A stretch of 64,000 bases of DNA, from contig NZ_PTJC01000006.1 in the NCBI RefSeq assembly GCF_002934605.1, positions 1,550,001 through 1,614,000 on the forward strand, written 5' to 3'. Numbering within the stretch: the first letter of the stretch is position 1; each line of letters opens with the position of its first letter. Both the position numbers and the translations under genes were made by a program. This DNA is from Neolewinella xylanilytica (GTDB lineage Bacteria > Bacteroidota > Bacteroidia > Chitinophagales > Saprospiraceae). Positions 17,160 to 25,716 of this stretch are shown here, in pieces. Below the pieces are notes generated by a model that saw nothing but the letters and a program-made list of their open reading frames with translations, had not been told where the DNA came from and ran no database searches.

Positions 17160-17900
17160 CTACTTCGCGTCCTGACGGGCAAACACTTTCCGCAGCAATT
17201 CAGTATTGCGCAACGCGGGCTTTTCGCGTAATTCTGTTTCCTTCACCTCGATCAAACCAAACATTCCGTCCAATGCGCGGCTGGTAACGTAAACGTCCAG
17301 TTCGGGTTCGGTTTTTTTCACGAGGGGGATTTTGTTGTAGGCGGTAACCACCCGGTTCCAGATCTCGTTGGCGTTGACTTCGTCCAGGGCCGCCCGGATG
17401 ACGGGTTGGAACTCTCCGGTCAGGGCGGTGGAGGTACTGGTCTCCAGGTAACGGGTAGCCGCGTCCTTTTCGCCCATCAGGAGGTTCATCGCGTCCCGAA
17501 AGGTGAGCCCCTTGATCGCGTCCACGAAGATCGGGGTGGCTTTCTTCGCCGCCAGTTCGGCCGCGCGGTTGATCCGCTCGGTTAGGTCCTGCTCGATGTT
17601 ACCGAAGCCGGGTAGGGCACTCACCCGGCTGACGATCGCCTGAGCTTCCTCCGGCAGGAGGATTTTGTAGGGACTTCCGTAGTAGCCGTTCTCGGCGGAA
17701 AGGCTGGTCACCGCCTGGCCTACCCCCTGGTCCAGGGCCTCTTTCAGGGCTTGTCCGACTTCTTCGTTGCTCAACGGGCTATCGCCGCGCAACACCCCTT
17801 CCGCCTTGTCGGCTAATTTACCCAGCTTTCCGAATTGCGCGTTGGCGGGGAAAGCAAAGAGGCTAGTAAGCGCTAGAATGAAAAGTAGGCGAAGTTTCAT
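17160..17900 (-). CDS. DUF4197 domain secreted protein
   Basis: The 246-residue product has a signal peptide (MKLRLLFILALTSLFAFPANAQ) followed by the DUF4197 signature: SNEEVGQALKEALDQGVGQAV, YKILLPEEAQ, AAELAAKKATPIFVDAIKGLTFRDAMNLLMG, and DVYVTSRALDGMFGLIEVKE. The family is helical and found across Gram-negative bacteria, with no known function. It lies 133 bp upstream of the TonB receptor on the same strand. Confidence 0.92.
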   Translation of the reverse strand: MKLRLLFILALTSLFAFPANAQFGKLGKLADKAEGVLRGDSPLSNEEVGQALKEALDQGVGQAVTSLSAENGYYGSPYKILLPEEAQAIVSRVSALPGFGNIEQDLTERINRAAELAAKKATPIFVDAIKGLTFRDAMNLLMGEKDAATRYLETSTSTALTGEFQPVIRAALDEVNANEIWNRVVTAYNKIPLVKKTEPELDVYVTSRALDGMFGLIEVKETELREKPALRNTELLRKVFARQDAK

Positions 17901-18147: not shown

Positions 18148-19209
18148 TCAGACCAAAATATCCTCCCGTTCCGTACCCTCCACTTCCAGGATAAAATCCG
18201 CTCCGAAGAGTCCGGCCGGCGTCTGGTACCCGGGCTTCGCCTGTCCGTCAAGCACCCGCCGCACGATCATCAGACTGGTGATCCCGGTCAGGGTATAGCC
18301 TTCGGGCGTTCGCATCCGGGCGGCGACGGTGCGTCCGCTTACGTCTTTTACCTCGCCGTATATATAGGTCTCGGCCTCGGCCCGTTGCGCGTCGTCCGGC
18401 CCCGCGGGGCGGTCCTCTATTTTCTTCTGGAGAAAGCGTTGTACCGGACCGAGTTGGAGTATCGGGCCCAGCCAGTTGCTGCGCTCCATGGTTTTCAGCT
18501 GCTTGGGGGGCACGGCGAAGAAGGTCTTGATATTCGGGATGCCCGTGGTGAAGTAGGCGGTGAAGACGTCACCCCAGGGAATGGTCACCGCCCGCAGGGA
18601 AATTTGCTCGGTGAAGGGGAAGTCGCGGGTTTCGTGGGCGGCCTTTACCTTTTTGATGGCCCCGTGTTCCCGGATCGCTCCGCCGTTGCCGGCCCCGCCC
18701 AGCATGGTCTTCGCTGTTCCCCGGCTTATCCCGCCGCCCTTCCAGGCAAAGGCAAGCACCAGCTCGGTGGCCGCTTTCATCTGCTGCTTCAGGTAGGCGG
18801 CCATGCAGTCGGTGGGCACCACGTCGAAGCCGACGCCGGGCATTAGCATAATCCCTGCCCGCTGTGCTTCGGGGCCCATTTTTGCTGCCCGGGCGAATAC
18901 GGGAATTTCACCGGTGATGTCCAGGTAATGGGTGCCGGTACGCAGGCAAGCCTCCATCATCGGTTCGGCCGTATGCTCGAAGGGCCCCGCCGCGTGCAGT
19001 ACTACGGTGAAGTCCTGCAGCAAATCATCCAGTTCGGTCCGGTTATTCAGGTCTACCGCCCGGTAGTCGTAGCCAAACTCGTGGTGCATGGCCTCCAGTT
19101 TCTCCGCGTTGCGACCGCTCAGCAAGGGGCGCAGGCCATGATCGGCGGCCATGCGGGTAATCAGTCGGCCGGTATAGCCGTAAGCACCGTACAGTAGGAA
19201 GTCCGACAT
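18148..19209 (-). CDS. Saccharopine dehydrogenase-like / trans-acting enoyl reductase family protein
   Basis: An N-terminal Rossmann motif LLYGAYGYTGRLI (about residues 4-16) and RPLLSGRNAEKLEAM mark an NAD(P)-binding domain. HAAGPFEHTAEPMMEACLRTGTHYLDITGEIPVF (about 70-105) and GVGFDVVPTDCMAAYLK are typical of the saccharopine dehydrogenase-like family that includes trans-acting enoyl reductases. The 353-residue length fits. Substrate is unknown. The minus-strand start at 19209 is preceded by an exact copy of the recurrent GC-rich element. Confidence 0.88.
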   Translation of the reverse strand: MSDFLLYGAYGYTGRLITRMAADHGLRPLLSGRNAEKLEAMHHEFGYDYRAVDLNNRTELDDLLQDFTVVLHAAGPFEHTAEPMMEACLRTGTHYLDITGEIPVFARAAKMGPEAQRAGIMLMPGVGFDVVPTDCMAAYLKQQMKAATELVLAFAWKGGGISRGTAKTMLGGAGNGGAIREHGAIKKVKAAHETRDFPFTEQISLRAVTIPWGDVFTAYFTTGIPNIKTFFAVPPKQLKTMERSNWLGPILQLGPVQRFLQKKIEDRPAGPDDAQRAEAETYIYGEVKDVSGRTVAARMRTPEGYTLTGITSLMIVRRVLDGQAKPGYQTPAGLFGADFILEVEGTEREDILV

Positions 19210-19526
19210 AAGAAGGGCAATTTAAAAGGATGAAGGGCGAAACAACAGCGAGCTCCCGTTCGGCCAAGCGGTGGGCGCCGGGGCGCAGGTGCAAGGATCG
19301 TCAGCGGGGGAATGTTCATTTCCGGCCGAGGCTCCTCCGGTCAGCGGCATTACGCCCGCCTCGTTTACGGCCTCCATCTCTTGGTATCCGTTCGATCTTT
19401 TTACGGAAGATAGTCGCTGCTTTGCCTACGCTCTGAAGGGAGGTCCACACTGTGCCGAATTACCGGGTTGCGCTTTCACGACCTCCGAGTTCTCGACCGC
19501 GAAACGGGTACACCGGTCGCCATCAT
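19210..19526. other. Intergenic region, no gene seen
   Basis: This 317-bp stretch holds the minus-strand GC-rich element at 19275-19294, presumed part of the 5' region of the gene at 18148-19209. No open frame in it has a recognisable product. Confidence 0.6.
19275..19294 (-). promoter_or_regulatory. Exact copy of the recurrent 20-bp GC-rich upstream element
   Basis: The minus strand reads TTGCACCTGCGCCCCGGCGC, ending 65 bp before the start of the oxidoreductase gene. The sequence TGCGC-CCCG-GCGC can form a short hairpin. The same 20 bases occur upstream of the genes at 30228 and 57352. Confidence 0.6.
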
Positions 19527-20210
19527 CCAAGGTTGAAGCCCTTGAGCTGAGATAAGCTTCCTACCGGCTCACCCTAGAAGGGTTCGACCTTGGAGCGTAG
19601 GCTTCGGTTAAGAGCGGTCCAAGCTCGAAGCCCTCCGGGCTGAGATGGTATATCCACCAGCTCCCCACTACAAGTTTTCGATCCCGCAATTGACACGCCG
19701 GTCACCATAATCCAAGGTCGAAGCCCTCCGGGCTGAGATGAGCTACCCAATAGCTCAGCCTAGTAAGGCTTCGACCTCGAAACGTGGCGGCGGTTCTGCG
19801 ATCATCCAAGGTTGAAGCCCTTGAGCTGAGATAAGCTTTCCACCGGCTCGCCCTAGAAGGGTTCGACCTCGGAGCGTTGGCTTCAGTTGGGAGCGGTCCA
19901 AGCTCGAAGCCCTTGAGGTGAGATAAGCTTCCCACCGGCTCACCCTAGAAGGGTTCGACCTTGGAGCGTAGGCTTCGGTTAAGAGTGGTCCAAGGTCGAA
20001 GCCCTCCGGGCTGAGATGAGCTACCCAACAGCTCACCCTAGAAGGGTTCGACCTCGGAACGTGGCGGCGGTTCTGCGTTCAACCAAGGTCGAAGCCCTCC
20101 GGGCTGAGTTGCTACGCACACCCTAGATGCTCAGCTTACCACAGAAGGATTTGACCTTGGAGCGTAGGCTTTGGTCGGGAGCGATCCAAGATCAAGCCTT
20201 CGTGGCTAAG
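19527..20210. repeat. Array of about eight imperfect hairpin repeats with a 92-94 bp period
   Basis: CCAAGgT/CcTCGAAGCCC-like starts occur at 19527, 19619, 19712, 19806, 19898, 19990, 20083 and, degenerate, 20186, spaced 92, 93, 94, 92, 92, 93 and 103 bp. Most units are long inverted repeats: CCAAGGTYGAA at one end pairs with TTCGACCTTGG about 55 bases later, enclosing CCCTCCGGGCTGAGAT and an inner GAGCT/AGCTC. Spacers alternate between AGCGTAGGCTTCGGTTAAGAG-like and AACGTGGCGGCGGTTCTGCG-like types. No plausible coding sequence runs through. The array fills the divergent region between the oxidoreductase gene and the trp promoter. A solo half-copy lies at 23887-23909. Confidence 0.88.
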
Positions 20211-20293: not shown

Positions 20294-20325
20294 TTTGGAA
20301 ATCGTACTTTTTTCCCCCTATCTTG
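20294..20325 (+). promoter_or_regulatory. Promoter of the trp operon (TTTG -33, TATCTTG -7)
   Basis: TTTG at 20294-20297 and TATCTTG at 20319-20325 are separated by 21 bp, a good Bacteroidota promoter. Transcription would start at or very near the leader-peptide ATG at 20331, so the leader may be read from an almost leaderless mRNA. Confidence 0.6.
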
Positions 20326-20330
20326 CCGCC

Positions 20331-20381
20331 ATGCAAATGACCAATACCAACTGGTGGTGGCTGAACCGTACTCCCGAATGA
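20331..20381 (+). CDS. trpL: trp operon leader peptide, MQMTNTNWWWLNRTPE
   Basis: A 16-codon open frame begins right after the promoter and contains three consecutive TGG (Trp) codons at 20352-20360, ending in TGA at 20379-20381. It is followed within 10 bases by an antiterminator arm and then a terminator hairpin. This is the classical arrangement for ribosome-mediated attenuation: a ribosome stalled at the Trp codons when charged tRNA-Trp is scarce leaves the antiterminator free; a ribosome reaching the stop codon covers it. Three Trp in a row in a 16-residue peptide is very unlikely by chance, given Trp is the rarest residue. Confidence 0.88.
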   Translation: MQMTNTNWWWLNRTPE

Positions 20382-20390
20382 GCACGCGCT

Positions 20391-20451
20391 AGCCCTTTTG
20401 CACAAAAAATCAAAGGCTCGTCGGTTGCTCCGGCGGGCCTTTCGCTATTTT
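20391..20451 (+). promoter_or_regulatory. trp attenuator: antiterminator arm and terminator hairpin
   Basis: The terminator stem is 20412-20424 (AAAGGCTCGTCGG) with 20430-20442 (CCGGCGGGCCTTT), 13 pairs including two G-U, loop TTGCT, followed by CGCTATTTT. The antiterminator is AGCCCTTTTG (20391-20400), which can pair with CAAAGGCT (20411-20418) and so occupy the 5' arm of the terminator. GGCT at 20359-20362, overlapping the last Trp codon, is complementary to AGCC at 20391-20394, a candidate but short 1:2 pairing. Confidence 0.82.
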
Positions 20452-20488
20452 AGCCCCCGCAGCTGCCGATATAAACTCTCTCTCCCCC

Positions 20489-21928
20489 TTGTCTACGACT
20501 ACGCTAGCTTCCGAACAAACTGCCCTGACCGTCCGCAGCCGGCGCCTGACGGCCGATCAGCTGACGCCCGTTTCGCTCTACCTGGCCCTGCGCGACCGGT
20601 TCACCGATCCCGTGCTGCTGGAATCCAACGAAACCCGCAACCACGAGCACTACTTCAGCATCATCGGACTGGAAACACTCGCCTTTTACCGCGTCGAGGA
20701 CGGCCGCATTCATCGGGGCAGGGTAGGGCAGACGATCCGGGAATTGCCCTGCACCGACGCCGACACCGTCAGCGACGACCTGAGCGCTTACCTGAAATCA
20801 TTCGCTATCGATTACGGAGATACTCCCCAGCTGGTGAGGCAGTTCAACGGACTGATCGGCCACACGAATTTCGAGGGCGTCGCGTATTTCGATACGCTGT
20901 CGTTCCGAAATCCATCGCGGCTGCGGTCCCCCGCCCTCCGCTACCACCTGTACCGCTTCGTGCTGGTGTTCCACCACTACCGCGACGAACTCCTCCTCAT
21001 CGAGAACCTGCCCGACGGAGAAACCAGTCGCCTCGACGAGGTCGAACGCTGCATCCGGGCTGGGGGCACCGTGCATCCGTTCACTCCCCGGGGGGAGTCC
21101 ACCAGTAACATGACGGACGACGATTTCAAGGCGCTCGTGGCGAAGGGCAAGCACCACTGCCGGATCGGCGACGTGTTCCAGATCGTGCTAAGCCGCCAGT
21201 TCCGCCAGGAATTCCACGGGGATGAGTTCCAGGTGTACCGGGCGTTGCGCAGTATCAATCCCTCGCCCTACCTCTTTTACTTCGATTACGGGGACTACCG
21301 GATCATGGGCTCCAGTCCCGAAAGCCAGATGGTGATCCGCGACGGGGTGGCCCGCCTCAATCCCATCGCCGGTACCTATCGCCGTACCGGCGACGCGGAC
21401 CAAGACCGGGAAGCCACCGAACGGCTCCTGGCTGACCCGAAGGAAAATGCCGAGCACGTCATGCTGGTAGACCTGGCCCGCAACGACCTCAGCCGCCATA
21501 CCCGGGAGGTCACCGTGCGCAGCCTGAGGGAAGTACACTACTACAGCCACGTCATCCACCTGGTGAGTACCGTCGACGGCAAGCTGGAGGCGGATGATGT
21601 AGCCGTTCGCGTCTTCGGAGACACCTTTCCCGCCGGAACCCTCAGCGGCGCACCGAAGTACCGGGCCATCGAACTGATCGACCAGTACGAAAAGCAGCAA
21701 CGGGGATTCTACGGCGGCGCCATCGGCTTTATCGACTTCGAAGGGGGAATGAACCAAGCCATCCTCATTCGTTCCTTTTTCAGCCAGGACAACGCCCTCC
21801 ACTACCAGGCCGGTGCCGGGGTGGTGGCGGCCAGCAACGAGGAAAGCGAGATGCAGGAGGTGTATAATAAGCTCGGCGCGCTTACCAAAGCCATCGCCAA
21901 GGCGGAAACCCTGCCGGCTAGCTTTTGA
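20489..21928 (+). CDS. trpE: Anthranilate synthase component I
   Basis: TrpE makes anthranilate from chorismate and ammonia supplied by TrpG. The protein (479 residues) has an N-terminal LLESNE motif (about residues 43-48), which in the family forms part of the tryptophan feedback site, and a chorismate-binding domain with IGDVFQIVLSRQF, YRALRSINPSPYLFYFDY, IMGSSPESQMV, PIAGTYRRTG, ENAEHVMLVDLARND, FPAGTLSGAPK and YGGAIGFIDF. The start is a TTG at 20489; no ATG precedes the conserved region in frame. It follows the attenuator by 38 bp. The next gene, trpG, starts 140 bp downstream. Confidence 0.96.
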   Translation: MSTTTLASEQTALTVRSRRLTADQLTPVSLYLALRDRFTDPVLLESNETRNHEHYFSIIGLETLAFYRVEDGRIHRGRVGQTIRELPCTDADTVSDDLSAYLKSFAIDYGDTPQLVRQFNGLIGHTNFEGVAYFDTLSFRNPSRLRSPALRYHLYRFVLVFHHYRDELLLIENLPDGETSRLDEVERCIRAGGTVHPFTPRGESTSNMTDDDFKALVAKGKHHCRIGDVFQIVLSRQFRQEFHGDEFQVYRALRSINPSPYLFYFDYGDYRIMGSSPESQMVIRDGVARLNPIAGTYRRTGDADQDREATERLLADPKENAEHVMLVDLARNDLSRHTREVTVRSLREVHYYSHVIHLVSTVDGKLEADDVAVRVFGDTFPAGTLSGAPKYRAIELIDQYEKQQRGFYGGAIGFIDFEGGMNQAILIRSFFSQDNALHYQAGAGVVAASNEESEMQEVYNKLGALTKAIAKAETLPASF

Positions 21929-22068
21929 GGAAGCTCGCGCCATATTTTTTGAGTCGTGGATGTTCTCTTTAATTGCTCGGCCGCGCACACCGGTCCTCCC
22001 CGCGCCAACGATGCGAGCGTTCGCGAGCAACCGCAGTTATTCCGTTCAGCCGCACTACATGTGATCTA

Positions 22069-22668
22069 ATGAAAATACTAATCCTCGATAACTACGATTC
22101 CTTCACCTACAACCTCGTTCACTATATAGAGGACGAGCTCGGTGAAGACATTGACGTCTTCCGCAACGACGCCATCGACCTCGACGCCGTAGCCGCCTAC
22201 GACCTCGTCGTATTGAGCCCCGGCCCGGGCCTCCCCGCGGACGCCGGCATCATGCCCGCCCTGATCAAGCGCTACGCCAGCGAAAAGGTGATCTTCGGAG
22301 TCTGCCTCGGTCACCAGGCGATCGGGGAAGCCTACGGAGGCAGCCTGCACAACCTGAGCCAAGTGCACCACGGGGTGGAGACGGAAATGGTGCGCACCCT
22401 CACCGATGACGTCCTCTTCGCCGAGGTGCCCGAGCGCTTCCGGGCCGGCCGCTATCACAGCTGGGTGATCGACCCCGCCACGCTGCCCGACGAGCTCGAG
22501 ATTACCGCTACCGACGAAGTGGGCGGAATCATGGCCATGCGCCACCGCCACCTCCCCGTTTTCGGCGTTCAATTCCACCCCGAGAGCATTATGACGGAAC
22601 ACGGACGGCTCATGATCCGAAATTTACTGAACTTCGTGAAAAGCCGGCAAGCCGCCGCCCAAGCATAA
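22069..22668 (+). CDS. trpG: Anthranilate synthase component II (glutamine amidotransferase)
   Basis: A class I glutamine amidotransferase of 199 residues. It shows LDNYDSFTYNLVHYI at the N-terminus, SPGPG (about residues 50-54), the nucleophile in FGVCLGHQAIGE (Cys about 79), and FHPES carrying the His-x-Glu pair. It passes ammonia to TrpE. The ATG at 22069 gives the usual N-terminus; an in-frame upstream extension is not conserved. Its stop is 3 bp before trpB. In many Bacteroidota trpD, trpC and trpF would follow, but here trpB follows directly. Confidence 0.95.
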   Translation: MKILILDNYDSFTYNLVHYIEDELGEDIDVFRNDAIDLDAVAAYDLVVLSPGPGLPADAGIMPALIKRYASEKVIFGVCLGHQAIGEAYGGSLHNLSQVHHGVETEMVRTLTDDVLFAEVPERFRAGRYHSWVIDPATLPDELEITATDEVGGIMAMRHRHLPVFGVQFHPESIMTEHGRLMIRNLLNFVKSRQAAAQA

Positions 22669-22671
22669 CCC

Positions 22672-23868
22672 ATGATACAGACCAAGATAGACGACCGCGG
22701 ATACTACGGCCGCTTCGGGGGGGCCTACATCCCCGAGATGCTGCACGCCAACGTCGAAGAGCTGCGGCAAAATTACCTGCAGATGATGGCCGATCCCGAA
22801 TTCCGGCGGGAGTTCGACCTGCTACTGAAGGACTACGTCGGCCGGCCCAGTCCGCTGTACTACGCCGACCGGCTCAGTAAGCATTACGGGGCTAAGGTAT
22901 ACCTGAAGCGGGAAGACCTCAACCACACCGGTGCCCATAAAATCAACAACACCATCGGCCAGATCCTGCTGGCCGAACGCCTGGGTAAAAAACGCATCAT
23001 CGCCGAAACGGGTGCGGGTCAACACGGGGTCGCTACGGCGACCGTCTGCGCCCTGAAGGGACTGCGGTGCATCGTCTACATGGGCGAGGTGGACATCGAG
23101 CGCCAAGCCCCTAATGTAGCCCGTATGCGGATGCTCGGGGCCGAGGTACGTCCGGCCCGCAGCGGATCCCGCACCCTGAAGGATGCCACGAACGAGGCCA
23201 TTCGCGACTGGATTGCCAACCCCGACGATACCCACTACATCATCGGCTCGGTAGTGGGGCCGCACCCGTACCCGGATATGGTGGCCCGTTTCCAGGCGAT
23301 CATCTCCGAGGAGACGAAGTGGCAGTTGCAGGAGAAGATCGGCCGCGACTACCCGGATGCCATCGTGGCCTGCGTGGGCGGGGGCAGTAACGCCGCCGGA
23401 GCCTATTACCATTACCTCAACGACGAGCGGGTGCGCCTGATCGCCGTGGAAGCCGCCGGCCTGGGCGTCGACAGCGGCGAATCGGCCGCAACGAGCCAGC
23501 TCGGTACCGAAGGCATCATCCACGGTAGCCGCACGCTGCTGATGCAGACCGAAGACGGCCAGATCGTGGAACCCTACAGCATTTCCGCCGGCCTCGATTA
23601 TCCGGGTATCGGTCCGCTGCACGCCTTCCTCATCGACAGCGCGCGCGCGGAGGCCATCAGCGTCACCGACGACGATGCGCTGAAGGCCGCCCTGTTCGTG
23701 GCCCGGCAGGAAGGCATCATTCCCGCCCTGGAAACGGCCCACGCCTTTGCCGCCCTGGATCAGATGACCTACGGTCCGGAGGATGTCATCGTCGTCTGCC
23801 TCAGCGGCCGCGGCGATAAAGACTTAGCCGCCTTCTCAGCTTATTTGGACAGCGATTCCCTGACGTAA
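22672..23868 (+). CDS. trpB: Tryptophan synthase beta chain
   Basis: The 398-residue PLP enzyme joins indole and serine to give tryptophan. Visible are [11 protein letters not shown] at the start, the PLP lysine in [13 protein letters not shown] (Lys about 90), [11 protein letters not shown], the phosphate-binding [10 protein letters not shown] (about 235), GLDYPGIGP, and a C-terminal [10 protein letters not shown]. Length matches the family. It forms the alpha2-beta2 complex with TrpA, encoded 46 bp downstream. Confidence 0.98.
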
Positions 23869-23886
23869 ATATTATCAGTCATCCCG

Positions 23887-23909
23887 GCCCGGAGGGCCTC
23901 GACCTTGGA
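23887..23909 (-). repeat. Solo half-copy of the 93-bp hairpin repeat between trpB and trpA
   Basis: The minus strand matches the start of the repeat units at 19527-20210 (TCCAAGGTCGAagCCCTCCGGGC form) over 23 bases with a single mismatch. It ends 5 bp before the trpA ATG. GGCCCGGAGGGCC at 23886-23898 could form a small hairpin in the mRNA. Confidence 0.7.
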
Positions 23910-23914
23910 CCATT

Positions 23915-24712
23915 ATGAATCGATTGAGCAGACTATTTTCCGAAAAGAAACGCGACGTCCTTAATATCTACTTTACCGCCGGCTATCCCGCCCTCGACAG
24001 CACGGTGCCGATCATCCGGAACCTGGCTGAGGCCGGGGCGGACCTGATCGAGGTCGGCATGCCGTATTCGGATCCCATGGCCGACGGAGAGACCATTCAA
24101 CAGAGTAGCATGGTCGCCCTCCAGAACGGCATGACGCTTAAGCTCCTCTTCGAACAACTCACCGAGGCCCGCCGCCACACCCAGATCCCGCTGGTGATGA
24201 TGGGGTACTACAACCAGGTGATGCAGTACGGTGCCGAGCGTTTCGTAGGGGCCGCGGCCGCTGCCGGTGTGGACGGGCTTATTCTTCCCGATCTGCCATC
24301 CTTCGAGTATCAGCGCGATTTTCGGCAACTGGCCGACGCGGCCGGACTGGAAGTGAGCTTTCTCATTACCCCGCATACGACGGACGAGCGCATCCGGGAA
24401 ATCGCGGGAAGCAGCAGCGGCTTCCTCTACGTCGTTAGCAGCAGCAGCATCACGGGGGGCAGTTCGCAGATCAGCGACCGGCAGCGCGCCTATTTCGACC
24501 GCATCGCCGCCCTCGACCTGCCGAACCCGAAACTGATCGGCTTCGGGATCAGCGACGCGGAAACCTTCCGTACCGCTTGCGAATACTTCAACGGAGCCAT
24601 TATCGGCAGTGCCTTCATCCGCGCGTTAAAGGACCAGGAGGAACGGGTAGAAGCAGCCACCCGGGAATTCGTGCGCGGGATCCTGGAGCCCAGCCTGGCG
24701 GCAAAAAGGTAG
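23915..24712 (+). CDS. trpA: Tryptophan synthase alpha chain
   Basis: TrpA cleaves indole-3-glycerol phosphate to indole for TrpB. The 265-residue TIM-barrel shows YFTAGYP, the catalytic Glu in ADLIEVGMPYSDPMADG (Glu about 46, Asp about 57), GVDGLILPDLP, FLYVVSSSSITGG and GFGISDAET with GAIIGSAFIR for phosphate binding. The start ATG at 23915 follows a solo repeat fragment. miaA begins 4 bp after its stop codon. Confidence 0.97.
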   Translation: MNRLSRLFSEKKRDVLNIYFTAGYPALDSTVPIIRNLAEAGADLIEVGMPYSDPMADGETIQQSSMVALQNGMTLKLLFEQLTEARRHTQIPLVMMGYYNQVMQYGAERFVGAAAAAGVDGLILPDLPSFEYQRDFRQLADAAGLEVSFLITPHTTDERIREIAGSSSGFLYVVSSSSITGGSSQISDRQRAYFDRIAALDLPNPKLIGFGISDAETFRTACEYFNGAIIGSAFIRALKDQEERVEAATREFVRGILEPSLAAKR

Positions 24713-24716
24713 TCCG

Positions 24717-25607
24717 GTGACCCGGGACAAACCCTTGCTTATCGTCATCGGAGGAGCCACCGCGTCCGGAAAGACGCAACTGGCGATCGAGTTGGCGCGT
24801 CATTTCGGAACGGAAATCCTGAGCGCCGACAGCCGGCAATTTTACCGGGAGATGCGCATCGGCAACGCCCGACCCACGGAAGCGGAACTGGCCGCGGCCC
24901 CCCATCACTTCATAGCTGACCGGTCGCTCGCCGAACCCCTTACCGCCGGCACCTTCGCCGAAGCGGCGCTGCCCCTCCTGGACCGTATTTACCAGGACCG
25001 GTCGGTAGCTATACTTGCGGGGGGTAGCGGACTCTACATCCGGGCCGTTTGCGAGGGACTGGACGATTTTCCTGCGGTTTCCGAGGGCGCCGAAGCGCGG
25101 GTGCAACGACTTTCTTCCGAAGAAGGGTTGGCCGGTCTCCAACGCGAACTGGCCCGCCTCGACCCGGAGTACTACGCCACTGTCGACCGTCAGAATCACC
25201 GCCGGCTAGAGCGGGCGCTTCGGGTCTGCTACACATCGGATACGGCGTATAGTTCCTTTCTCGGCAAGCCACAGGAGCGTCCCTTTCGTCCTATTTACTT
25301 GCAGCCGCTGATCGATAGAGAAAGCTTATACGACCGGATTAACCAGCGGGTAAACCACATGCTGGAAGCCGGTTTGGAAGCGGAGGTGGCCGCCCTGCGG
25401 GAAGAGCGCTACCGACCGGTGTTGCAGACGGTGGGCTACCAGGAATGGTGGCCCTACTTCGACGGCACCTACGACCGCGACCGGGTCATCGAACTGATCC
25501 AGCGTAACTCCCGCCGGTATGCCAAGCGGCAGCGCACCTGGTTCCGGGAGTACCGGCCCGTAGCCACCGCCGACGAAGCTATTGCGCTGATCGAGAATAC
25601 TTACTGA
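24717..25607 (+). CDS. miaA: tRNA dimethylallyltransferase MiaA
   Basis: MiaA transfers a dimethylallyl group to A37 of tRNAs reading UNN codons, giving i6A37, which MiaB (669-2105) thiolates and methylates. The 296-residue protein has a P-loop GGATASGKT (about residues 12-20), SADSRQFYREMRIGNARPT, HHFIADRS, AILAGGSGLYIRAVCEGLDD and the C-terminal LETVGYQEW-type stretch VLQTVGYQEWWPYF plus RRYAKRQRTWFR. The start is a GTG at 24717, 4 bp after trpA, so it is almost certainly transcribed from the trp promoter and subject to the attenuator. In E. coli miaA mutants (formerly trpX) relax trp attenuation because undermodified tRNA-Trp reads the leader poorly. Confidence 0.96.
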   Translation: MTRDKPLLIVIGGATASGKTQLAIELARHFGTEILSADSRQFYREMRIGNARPTEAELAAAPHHFIADRSLAEPLTAGTFAEAALPLLDRIYQDRSVAILAGGSGLYIRAVCEGLDDFPAVSEGAEARVQRLSSEEGLAGLQRELARLDPEYYATVDRQNHRRLERALRVCYTSDTAYSSFLGKPQERPFRPIYLQPLIDRESLYDRINQRVNHMLEAGLEAEVAALREERYRPVLQTVGYQEWWPYFDGTYDRDRVIELIQRNSRRYAKRQRTWFREYRPVATADEAIALIENTY

Positions 25608-25660
25608 TCGGTTACGCTTCAGAGGCATCATGTCAGCGTCAGGGTAGGGTACTGAAAACC

Positions 25661-25695
25661 GCAAAGCTCCCCTGCCACTGGCAGGGGAGCTTTGC
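25661..25695. terminator. Strong bidirectional terminator after the trp-miaA operon
   Basis: GCAAAGCTCCCCTGC and GCAGGGGAGCTTTGC form a perfect 15-bp stem with a loop of 5 bases, between two convergent genes. Confidence 0.85.
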
Positions 25696-25716
25696 GGATC
25701 TTAATTTGGCAGGAAC

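Follow-up and report, generated by a model that had tools for sequence, protein, structure and literature searches.

How did a gene for tRNA modification come to lie directly behind trpA in an attenuated tryptophan operon, and does the enzyme thereby fall under the leader whose reading it assists? The question is raised by a 64,000-nucleotide stretch of Neolewinella xylanilytica DNA (the window), in which miaA, encoding the tRNA A37 dimethylallyltransferase, follows the trp genes. An initial annotation had placed miaA under a Trp-codon attenuator and proposed a self-correcting circuit, in which low modification of tRNA-Trp would raise expression of the operon and restore MiaA.

Gene order at the locus and its occurrence among relatives

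On the forward strand, positions 20331-25607 of the window hold a Trp leader and a terminator hairpin followed by trpE-trpG-trpB-trpA-miaA. The locus comprises the following features.

20294..20324, + strand: predicted Bacteroidota-type promoter (TTTGG at 20294-20298, 20 nt spacer, TATCTT at 20319-20324)
20331..20381, + strand: leader ORF MQMTNTNWWWLNRTPE, with tandem UGG codons at 20352-20360 (three Trp)
20391..20400, + strand: putative antiterminator segment 2 (AGCCCUUUUG)
20411..20418, + strand: putative segment 3 (CAAAGGCU), common to antiterminator and terminator
20412..20442, + strand: attenuator terminator hairpin of 13 pairs (from a scan and from pair counts over 20 species)
20489..21928, + strand: trpE (TIGR00564, 391.9 bits, E 4e-117, below its cut-off of 517.7)
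22069..22668, + strand: trpG (TIGR00566, over cut-off when scanned from 22072; ATG at 22069)
22672..23868, + strand: trpB (TIGR00263, over cut-off)
23915..24712, + strand: trpA (TIGR00262, over cut-off; NCBIfam TrpA, 212 bits versus a cut-off of 102)
24717..25607, + strand: miaA, tRNA A37 dimethylallyltransferase (GTG start; TIGR00174, 236.3 bits versus a cut-off of 148.65)
25659..25697, no strand assigned: 18-pair hairpin 3′ of miaA, with a T-run that best suits the convergent gene

The GTG of miaA lies 4 nt downstream of the trpA stop at 24712, and the gene is the single match in its own genome at E ≤ 0.001. No terminator-like site was listed by the scan on the + strand from 20442 to 25659, and the hairpin at 25659-25697 is the probable end of the operon. 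The coordinates and gene names of the initial annotation agree with the ORF coordinates and the NCBIfam TrpA and MiaA matches; its placement of miaA 4 bp after trpA and before the operon terminator was borne out, as was that of miaB within the window but apart from miaA (669-2108, opposite strand, 437 bits versus a cut-off of 355). It had left out that the trp operon is incomplete: trpD, trpC and trpF are absent from it and are grouped on another contig. Repeats were seen nearby. Shortly before the trp promoter (19525-20193) lies an array whose units measure ∼93 nt and have inverted arms within them, and there is a 45-nt inverted piece of that repeat (84%) at 23879-23923, which occupies the trpB-trpA gap and extends into the start of trpA.

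Of the 21 species of the genus, 16 carry miaA next to trpA and three carry the two genes apart (G003, G010 and G014 in our genome labels); in two (G007 and G011) the contig ends. The miaA gene of G007 is probably separate as well, because a mnmA-like gene lies downstream of it, as in G014. That the same junction recurs in 16 of 21 species argues that the adjacency is not due to chance. With start codons chosen by us, the gaps at the junction are -4, -1, -1, -1, 3, 4, 8, 8, 9, 17, 17, 19, 37, 63, 64 and 249 nt, so that 12 of the 16 adjacent species have gaps of at most 20 nt, with overlapping stop and start in four.

Outside the genus the junction was not found. An order-wide draw of 158 genomes, 84 of them with trpA, contained seven genus members, all with the adjacency, whereas it occurred in none of the 76 out-of-genus genomes carrying both genes (77 with trpA), as judged by eye from the gene coordinates and taking no account of contig ends. 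A first sample of relatives had likewise given 0 of 16 out-of-genus genomes with both genes. Finally, 13 of 80 miaA loci with flanks of up to 8 kb, taken from a collection of named genomes, lay beside trp genes, all from genus genomes already counted; the other 67 did not. Three of these 67 belong to the genus themselves (N. aurantiaca, which is G014, and two MAGs, G003 and G007), and several of the remaining contigs stop close to miaA. On these three results we gave up the idea of a widespread trpA-miaA adjacency.

The Trp leader and the transcription of miaA

Tandem Trp codons within a short ORF were present upstream of trpE in all 36 loci surveyed, 21 in the genus and 15 outside, although the leader ORF of G034 lacks an ATG; the survey took in 36 of 38 trpE matches, G038 and G048 being left out as weak (33% identity). 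Since the leader precedes trpE at all of these loci, with or without miaA, the trp leader is, judged by this distribution, older than the trpA-miaA junction. A strong terminator between leader and trpE was called by script in 32 of the 36 loci and recognized by eye in the remaining four; the start rule of the script skipped the window, L055 and L061, no terminator was called in L069, and the hairpin called in G015 (L047) was a wrong, longer one.

When the terminator structure drawn from the window's own sequence was applied to 20 genus sequences, 91.9% of cells were paired, compared with at most 59.1% in slid versions; G010, whose leader is too different, is not in this 20-row alignment. The covariation score of the terminator was 0.128 versus 0.088 in shuffles and was reached by none of 500 shuffles. 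One pair is fully compensated (AU 11, GC 9), but the number of doubly changed pairs (one) does not exceed that in shuffles, 353 of 500 of which reach it.

For the competing structure the signals are mixed. Alignment column 73 covaries with both of its partners, the one in the terminator and the one proposed for the antiterminator; the combinations with the latter are TA 10, CG 6, TG 3 and CA 1. Of seven antiterminator pairs drawn from the window, four are standard in 15-19 of the 20 species and the others in 4, 12 and 10, and several break outside the window's subclade. In 27 of 32 loci, segments 2 and 3 form more pairs than simple shuffles do on average, and the fold energy of the leader region is mildly better than that of shuffles (z -1.87), while antiterminator free energies are not (mean z -0.43, n = 32). 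The 2:3 pairing and the covariation of column 73 thus make a mutually exclusive, putative antiterminator likely but do not prove it, because the energies do not beat shuffles and several pairs fail. An Rfam scan of the window returned no family at gathering score.

We searched next to the leader for promoter signals of the lineage. In 19 of the 21 genomes of the genus, a TAnnTT hexamer begins 12 nt upstream of the leader ATG that we chose; among several possible leader ATGs the script took one with the hexamer at -12, which biases the count toward this spacing. The published consensus is TAnnTTTG at -7, as given in PMC7366714. From the position of the -7 hexamer 12 nt before the leader ATG (20319-20333 in the window), the mRNA from which the leader peptide is translated is probably leaderless or nearly so. 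Such transcripts are described as rare in this phylum, with 3.7% of 5′ UTRs below 10 nt and 5.5% leaderless (PMC7366714, PMC9723704).

This lineage-type promoter model was run over 274 nt around the start of miaA, with 480 coding windows as background (95th percentile 10.8). None of the 16 adjacent miaA genes scored above this background (range 0.5-9.0). The separate miaA of G010 scored 13.2, with a hexamer 12 nt before its GTG; those of G014 and G003 scored 8.3 and 3.3. Since two of the three separate genes score low, the scan must miss some promoters; it knows one promoter class, and its sensitivity is limited accordingly.

We conclude that miaA is very probably co-transcribed with the trp operon under the Trp attenuator, as the initial annotation had proposed. 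This is supported by the short gaps, by the leader at all 16 adjacent loci, and by the lack of any terminator signal (window) or promoter score over background (16 species) between trpA and miaA, which lie on the same strand. Adjacency without the leader in most relatives, which had been considered as contrary evidence, was not observed. A Trp leader stands before every adjacent locus, but it is equally present where miaA is absent, and we saw the junction in one genus only.

It is improbable that miaA is expressed mainly from an internal promoter and is an operon member in name only. E. coli-type promoter matches do occur at 23846-23875, upstream of trpA, and at 24988-25015, inside miaA. However, the 250 nt before miaA contain no lineage-type score over background in any of the 16 species, and since trpB and trpA nearly abut in G012 and G016, a site before trpA cannot be general.

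We therefore favour co-transcription, and propose that trpEGBA-miaA is one operon with a single promoter and a classical ribosome-mediated Trp attenuator, miaA being its fifth gene. When charged tRNA-Trp is short, the ribosome would stall at the tandem UGG codons, the antiterminator would form and the whole operon including miaA would be transcribed; when Trp is plentiful, most transcripts would end at 20442. MiaA output would then follow Trp supply. MiaA should in turn make i6A37 on the UGG-reading tRNA-Trp, which, to judge from E. coli, would exert a mild negative feedback on MiaA as a by-product. The junction would have been gained once in the genus, and from then on transcription of miaA would have come from the operon and not from a dedicated promoter like that predicted for the separate miaA of G010.

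The reach of this attenuator appears limited. A TrpR-family protein was found in none of the 21 genus genomes (the control, E. coli, gave one), trpD lies away from trpE in all 21 species, and no Trp leader was recognized before trpD in any of them. A second attenuator on trpD was considered and rejected: short ORFs with tandem Trp codons at L174, L177, L182, L183, L186 and L189 all overlap the preceding gene. As trpD lies elsewhere without a recognized leader and TrpR was not found, the attenuator seems to govern trpE, trpG, trpB, trpA and miaA only. Of the pathway, it would thus seem to control the first committed step and the final one, along with MiaA, and to leave the intermediate steps aside.

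Some observations on gene arrangement were made along the way. In subclade A, trpD follows by a few nucleotides a gene that we took by eye for that of an outer-membrane protein (L032:2750-6138; L172-L192), and in several other species of the genus a promoter-like site lies close to the start of trpD. G010, which branches earliest on the trp tree, divides its trp genes differently: trpE-trpG stands behind a Trp leader, and trpC-F-B-A and trpD each lie elsewhere (L033, L034, L035, L192); its miaA stands alone with a promoter-like site.

History of the junction and the proposed feedback loop

A single origin of the junction in the genus is probable. A tree of the TrpE, TrpG, TrpB and TrpA proteins gives one gain after G010 split off (node support 0.83) and one loss, in the line leading to G003, G007 and G014 before these split; G005 and G018 together are the sister group of these three. 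This is not a species tree, and some of its inner nodes have supports of 0.85-0.89. The miaA tree, many nodes of which are weakly supported, places G010 with subclade A (node 0.759), and under that tree G010 could be a second loss. The 249-nt trpA-miaA spacer of G005 (L041) contains a GC-rich inverted repeat, seen by eye; G005 falls in the sister group of the clade without the junction, and this spacer is perhaps a step toward loss. The separate miaA genes of G014 and G003 (L037, L039) have a long palindrome (TTGCATATAAACATGTTTATATGCAA) upstream, after a subtilase gene.

Once gained, the junction was well kept, in 8/8 resolved species of subclade A and 8/10 resolved species of the other subclade, and the genes flanking the operon differ between these two subclades. 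As a control we followed a co-directional gene pair upstream of the operon (17160-17900 and 18148-19209), which at 247 nt apart is looser than trpA-miaA: it is adjacent in 9/9 subclade A genomes and in 0/5 other genomes with both genes, on contigs as assembled. The trpA-miaA link is nevertheless dispensable, because miaA is separate in three, and probably four, species of the genus.

Could feedback be what keeps the junction? The loop of tRNA-Trp reads CCA-A-A and so presents A36-A37-A38, the target determinant of MiaA; the tRNA survey found one tRNA-Trp among the 30 of 39 tRNA loci that were given to ARAGORN. In E. coli, the trp and phe operons are described as less well attenuated in miaA mutants (PMC9303304), and i6A on tRNA-Trp is described to optimize trp attenuation (PMC7694415). 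From this E. coli genetics the sign of the loop would be negative: it is plausible that less MiaA causes slower reading of the leader, more read-through and hence more MiaA.

Under a working and selected homeostat, a lack of i6A37 on tRNA-Trp would slow the ribosome on the leader, read-through would rise and MiaA would recover, and this feedback would be what preserves the junction; it is a tentative reading that we consider rather unlikely. Its parts are present, i.e. a single-match miaA behind trpA, a leader with tandem UGG codons, a tRNA-Trp with A36-A37-A38 and miaB in the window; the E. coli mutants point the same way, and the junction outlived the break-up of the nearby gene pair. Against it, the leader peptides do not, by eye, track adjacency: the 16 adjacent loci divide into 11 with three and five with two tandem Trp codons, and both types also occur at loci without the junction. 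Furthermore, the leader peptide is identical in G018, which kept the junction, and G003, which lost it; this, and a leader that long predates the junction, argue against a tuned circuit. The junction was also seen in one genus only, where it seems to have been lost once. Co-evolution of leader and miaA was rejected on the same grounds, WW or WWW leaders being found at all loci examined.

Alternatively, and with a chance that we put just short of even, a rearrangement placed miaA behind trpA, its own promoter was lost, and basal read-through of the attenuator suffices, Trp regulation being of no use to the gene. The probable single gain and single loss agree with this, as does a leader unchanged by the gain or loss of miaA; basal read-through of the E. 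coli trp attenuator is given as 10-15% (PMC1183508), which could suffice for an enzyme gene. Such passive retention accords less well with a junction that persisted in both subclades, with overlapping genes in four species, while the nearby pair was not kept. Hitch-hiking with promoter loss accounts for the data as simply as an evolved circuit.

Co-transcription under the attenuator, our preferred reading, has consequences under either history. Even without a loop, a general translation enzyme would be subject to tryptophan supply in most of one genus; if the loop works, the attenuator would be a sensor of tRNA modification. The three or four species without the trpA-miaA link are a natural control. 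We regard it as possible, if somewhat doubtful, that the Neolewinella trp leader senses whether tRNA-Trp is both charged and i6A37-modified, so that a shortage of the modification would raise its own enzyme and modification of all tRNAs reading U-codons would be tied to Trp supply.

Comparison with known systems

The arrangement resembles the E. coli trp attenuator in its Trp-codon leader, its terminator and its presumed sensitivity to i6A37 of tRNA-Trp, and differs in that TrpR is present there and was not found in the 21 genus genomes. In E. coli, no loop closes, because miaA sits in another operon. That tRNA modification alters attenuation has long been known. The tRNA-modifying enzyme HisT/TruA has comparable ties: it acts on the his attenuator, and its gene truA is found beside trpF in pseudomonads. 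There, to our knowledge, the modifying gene is not under the attenuator on which it acts, and we know of no operon that includes the gene for the enzyme whose modification controls it.

The trpLE(G) operon of Sinorhizobium meliloti is similar in that the trp pathway is split, one operon alone is attenuated and repressor control is absent (PMC7298713). Its transcript is described to begin with the leader AUG (PMC7298713), and for the locus studied here the predicted start likewise lies at the AUG or close to it. S. meliloti belongs to another phylum, and its operon is not known to us to include a tRNA-modifying gene. Within the same phylum, amino-acid operons of Flavobacterium psychrophilum are under leader-peptide attenuation; trp is not named in the main text of that report (PMC9723704), and we know of no link to miaA there. 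Our literature search, limited to open PMC papers, found no report that assigns miaA to a trp operon. This form of regulation is classical; miaA as a member of the operon is apparently new, at least to us: in one marine Bacteroidota genus, MiaA, a helper in reading the Trp leader, may itself be controlled by that leader.
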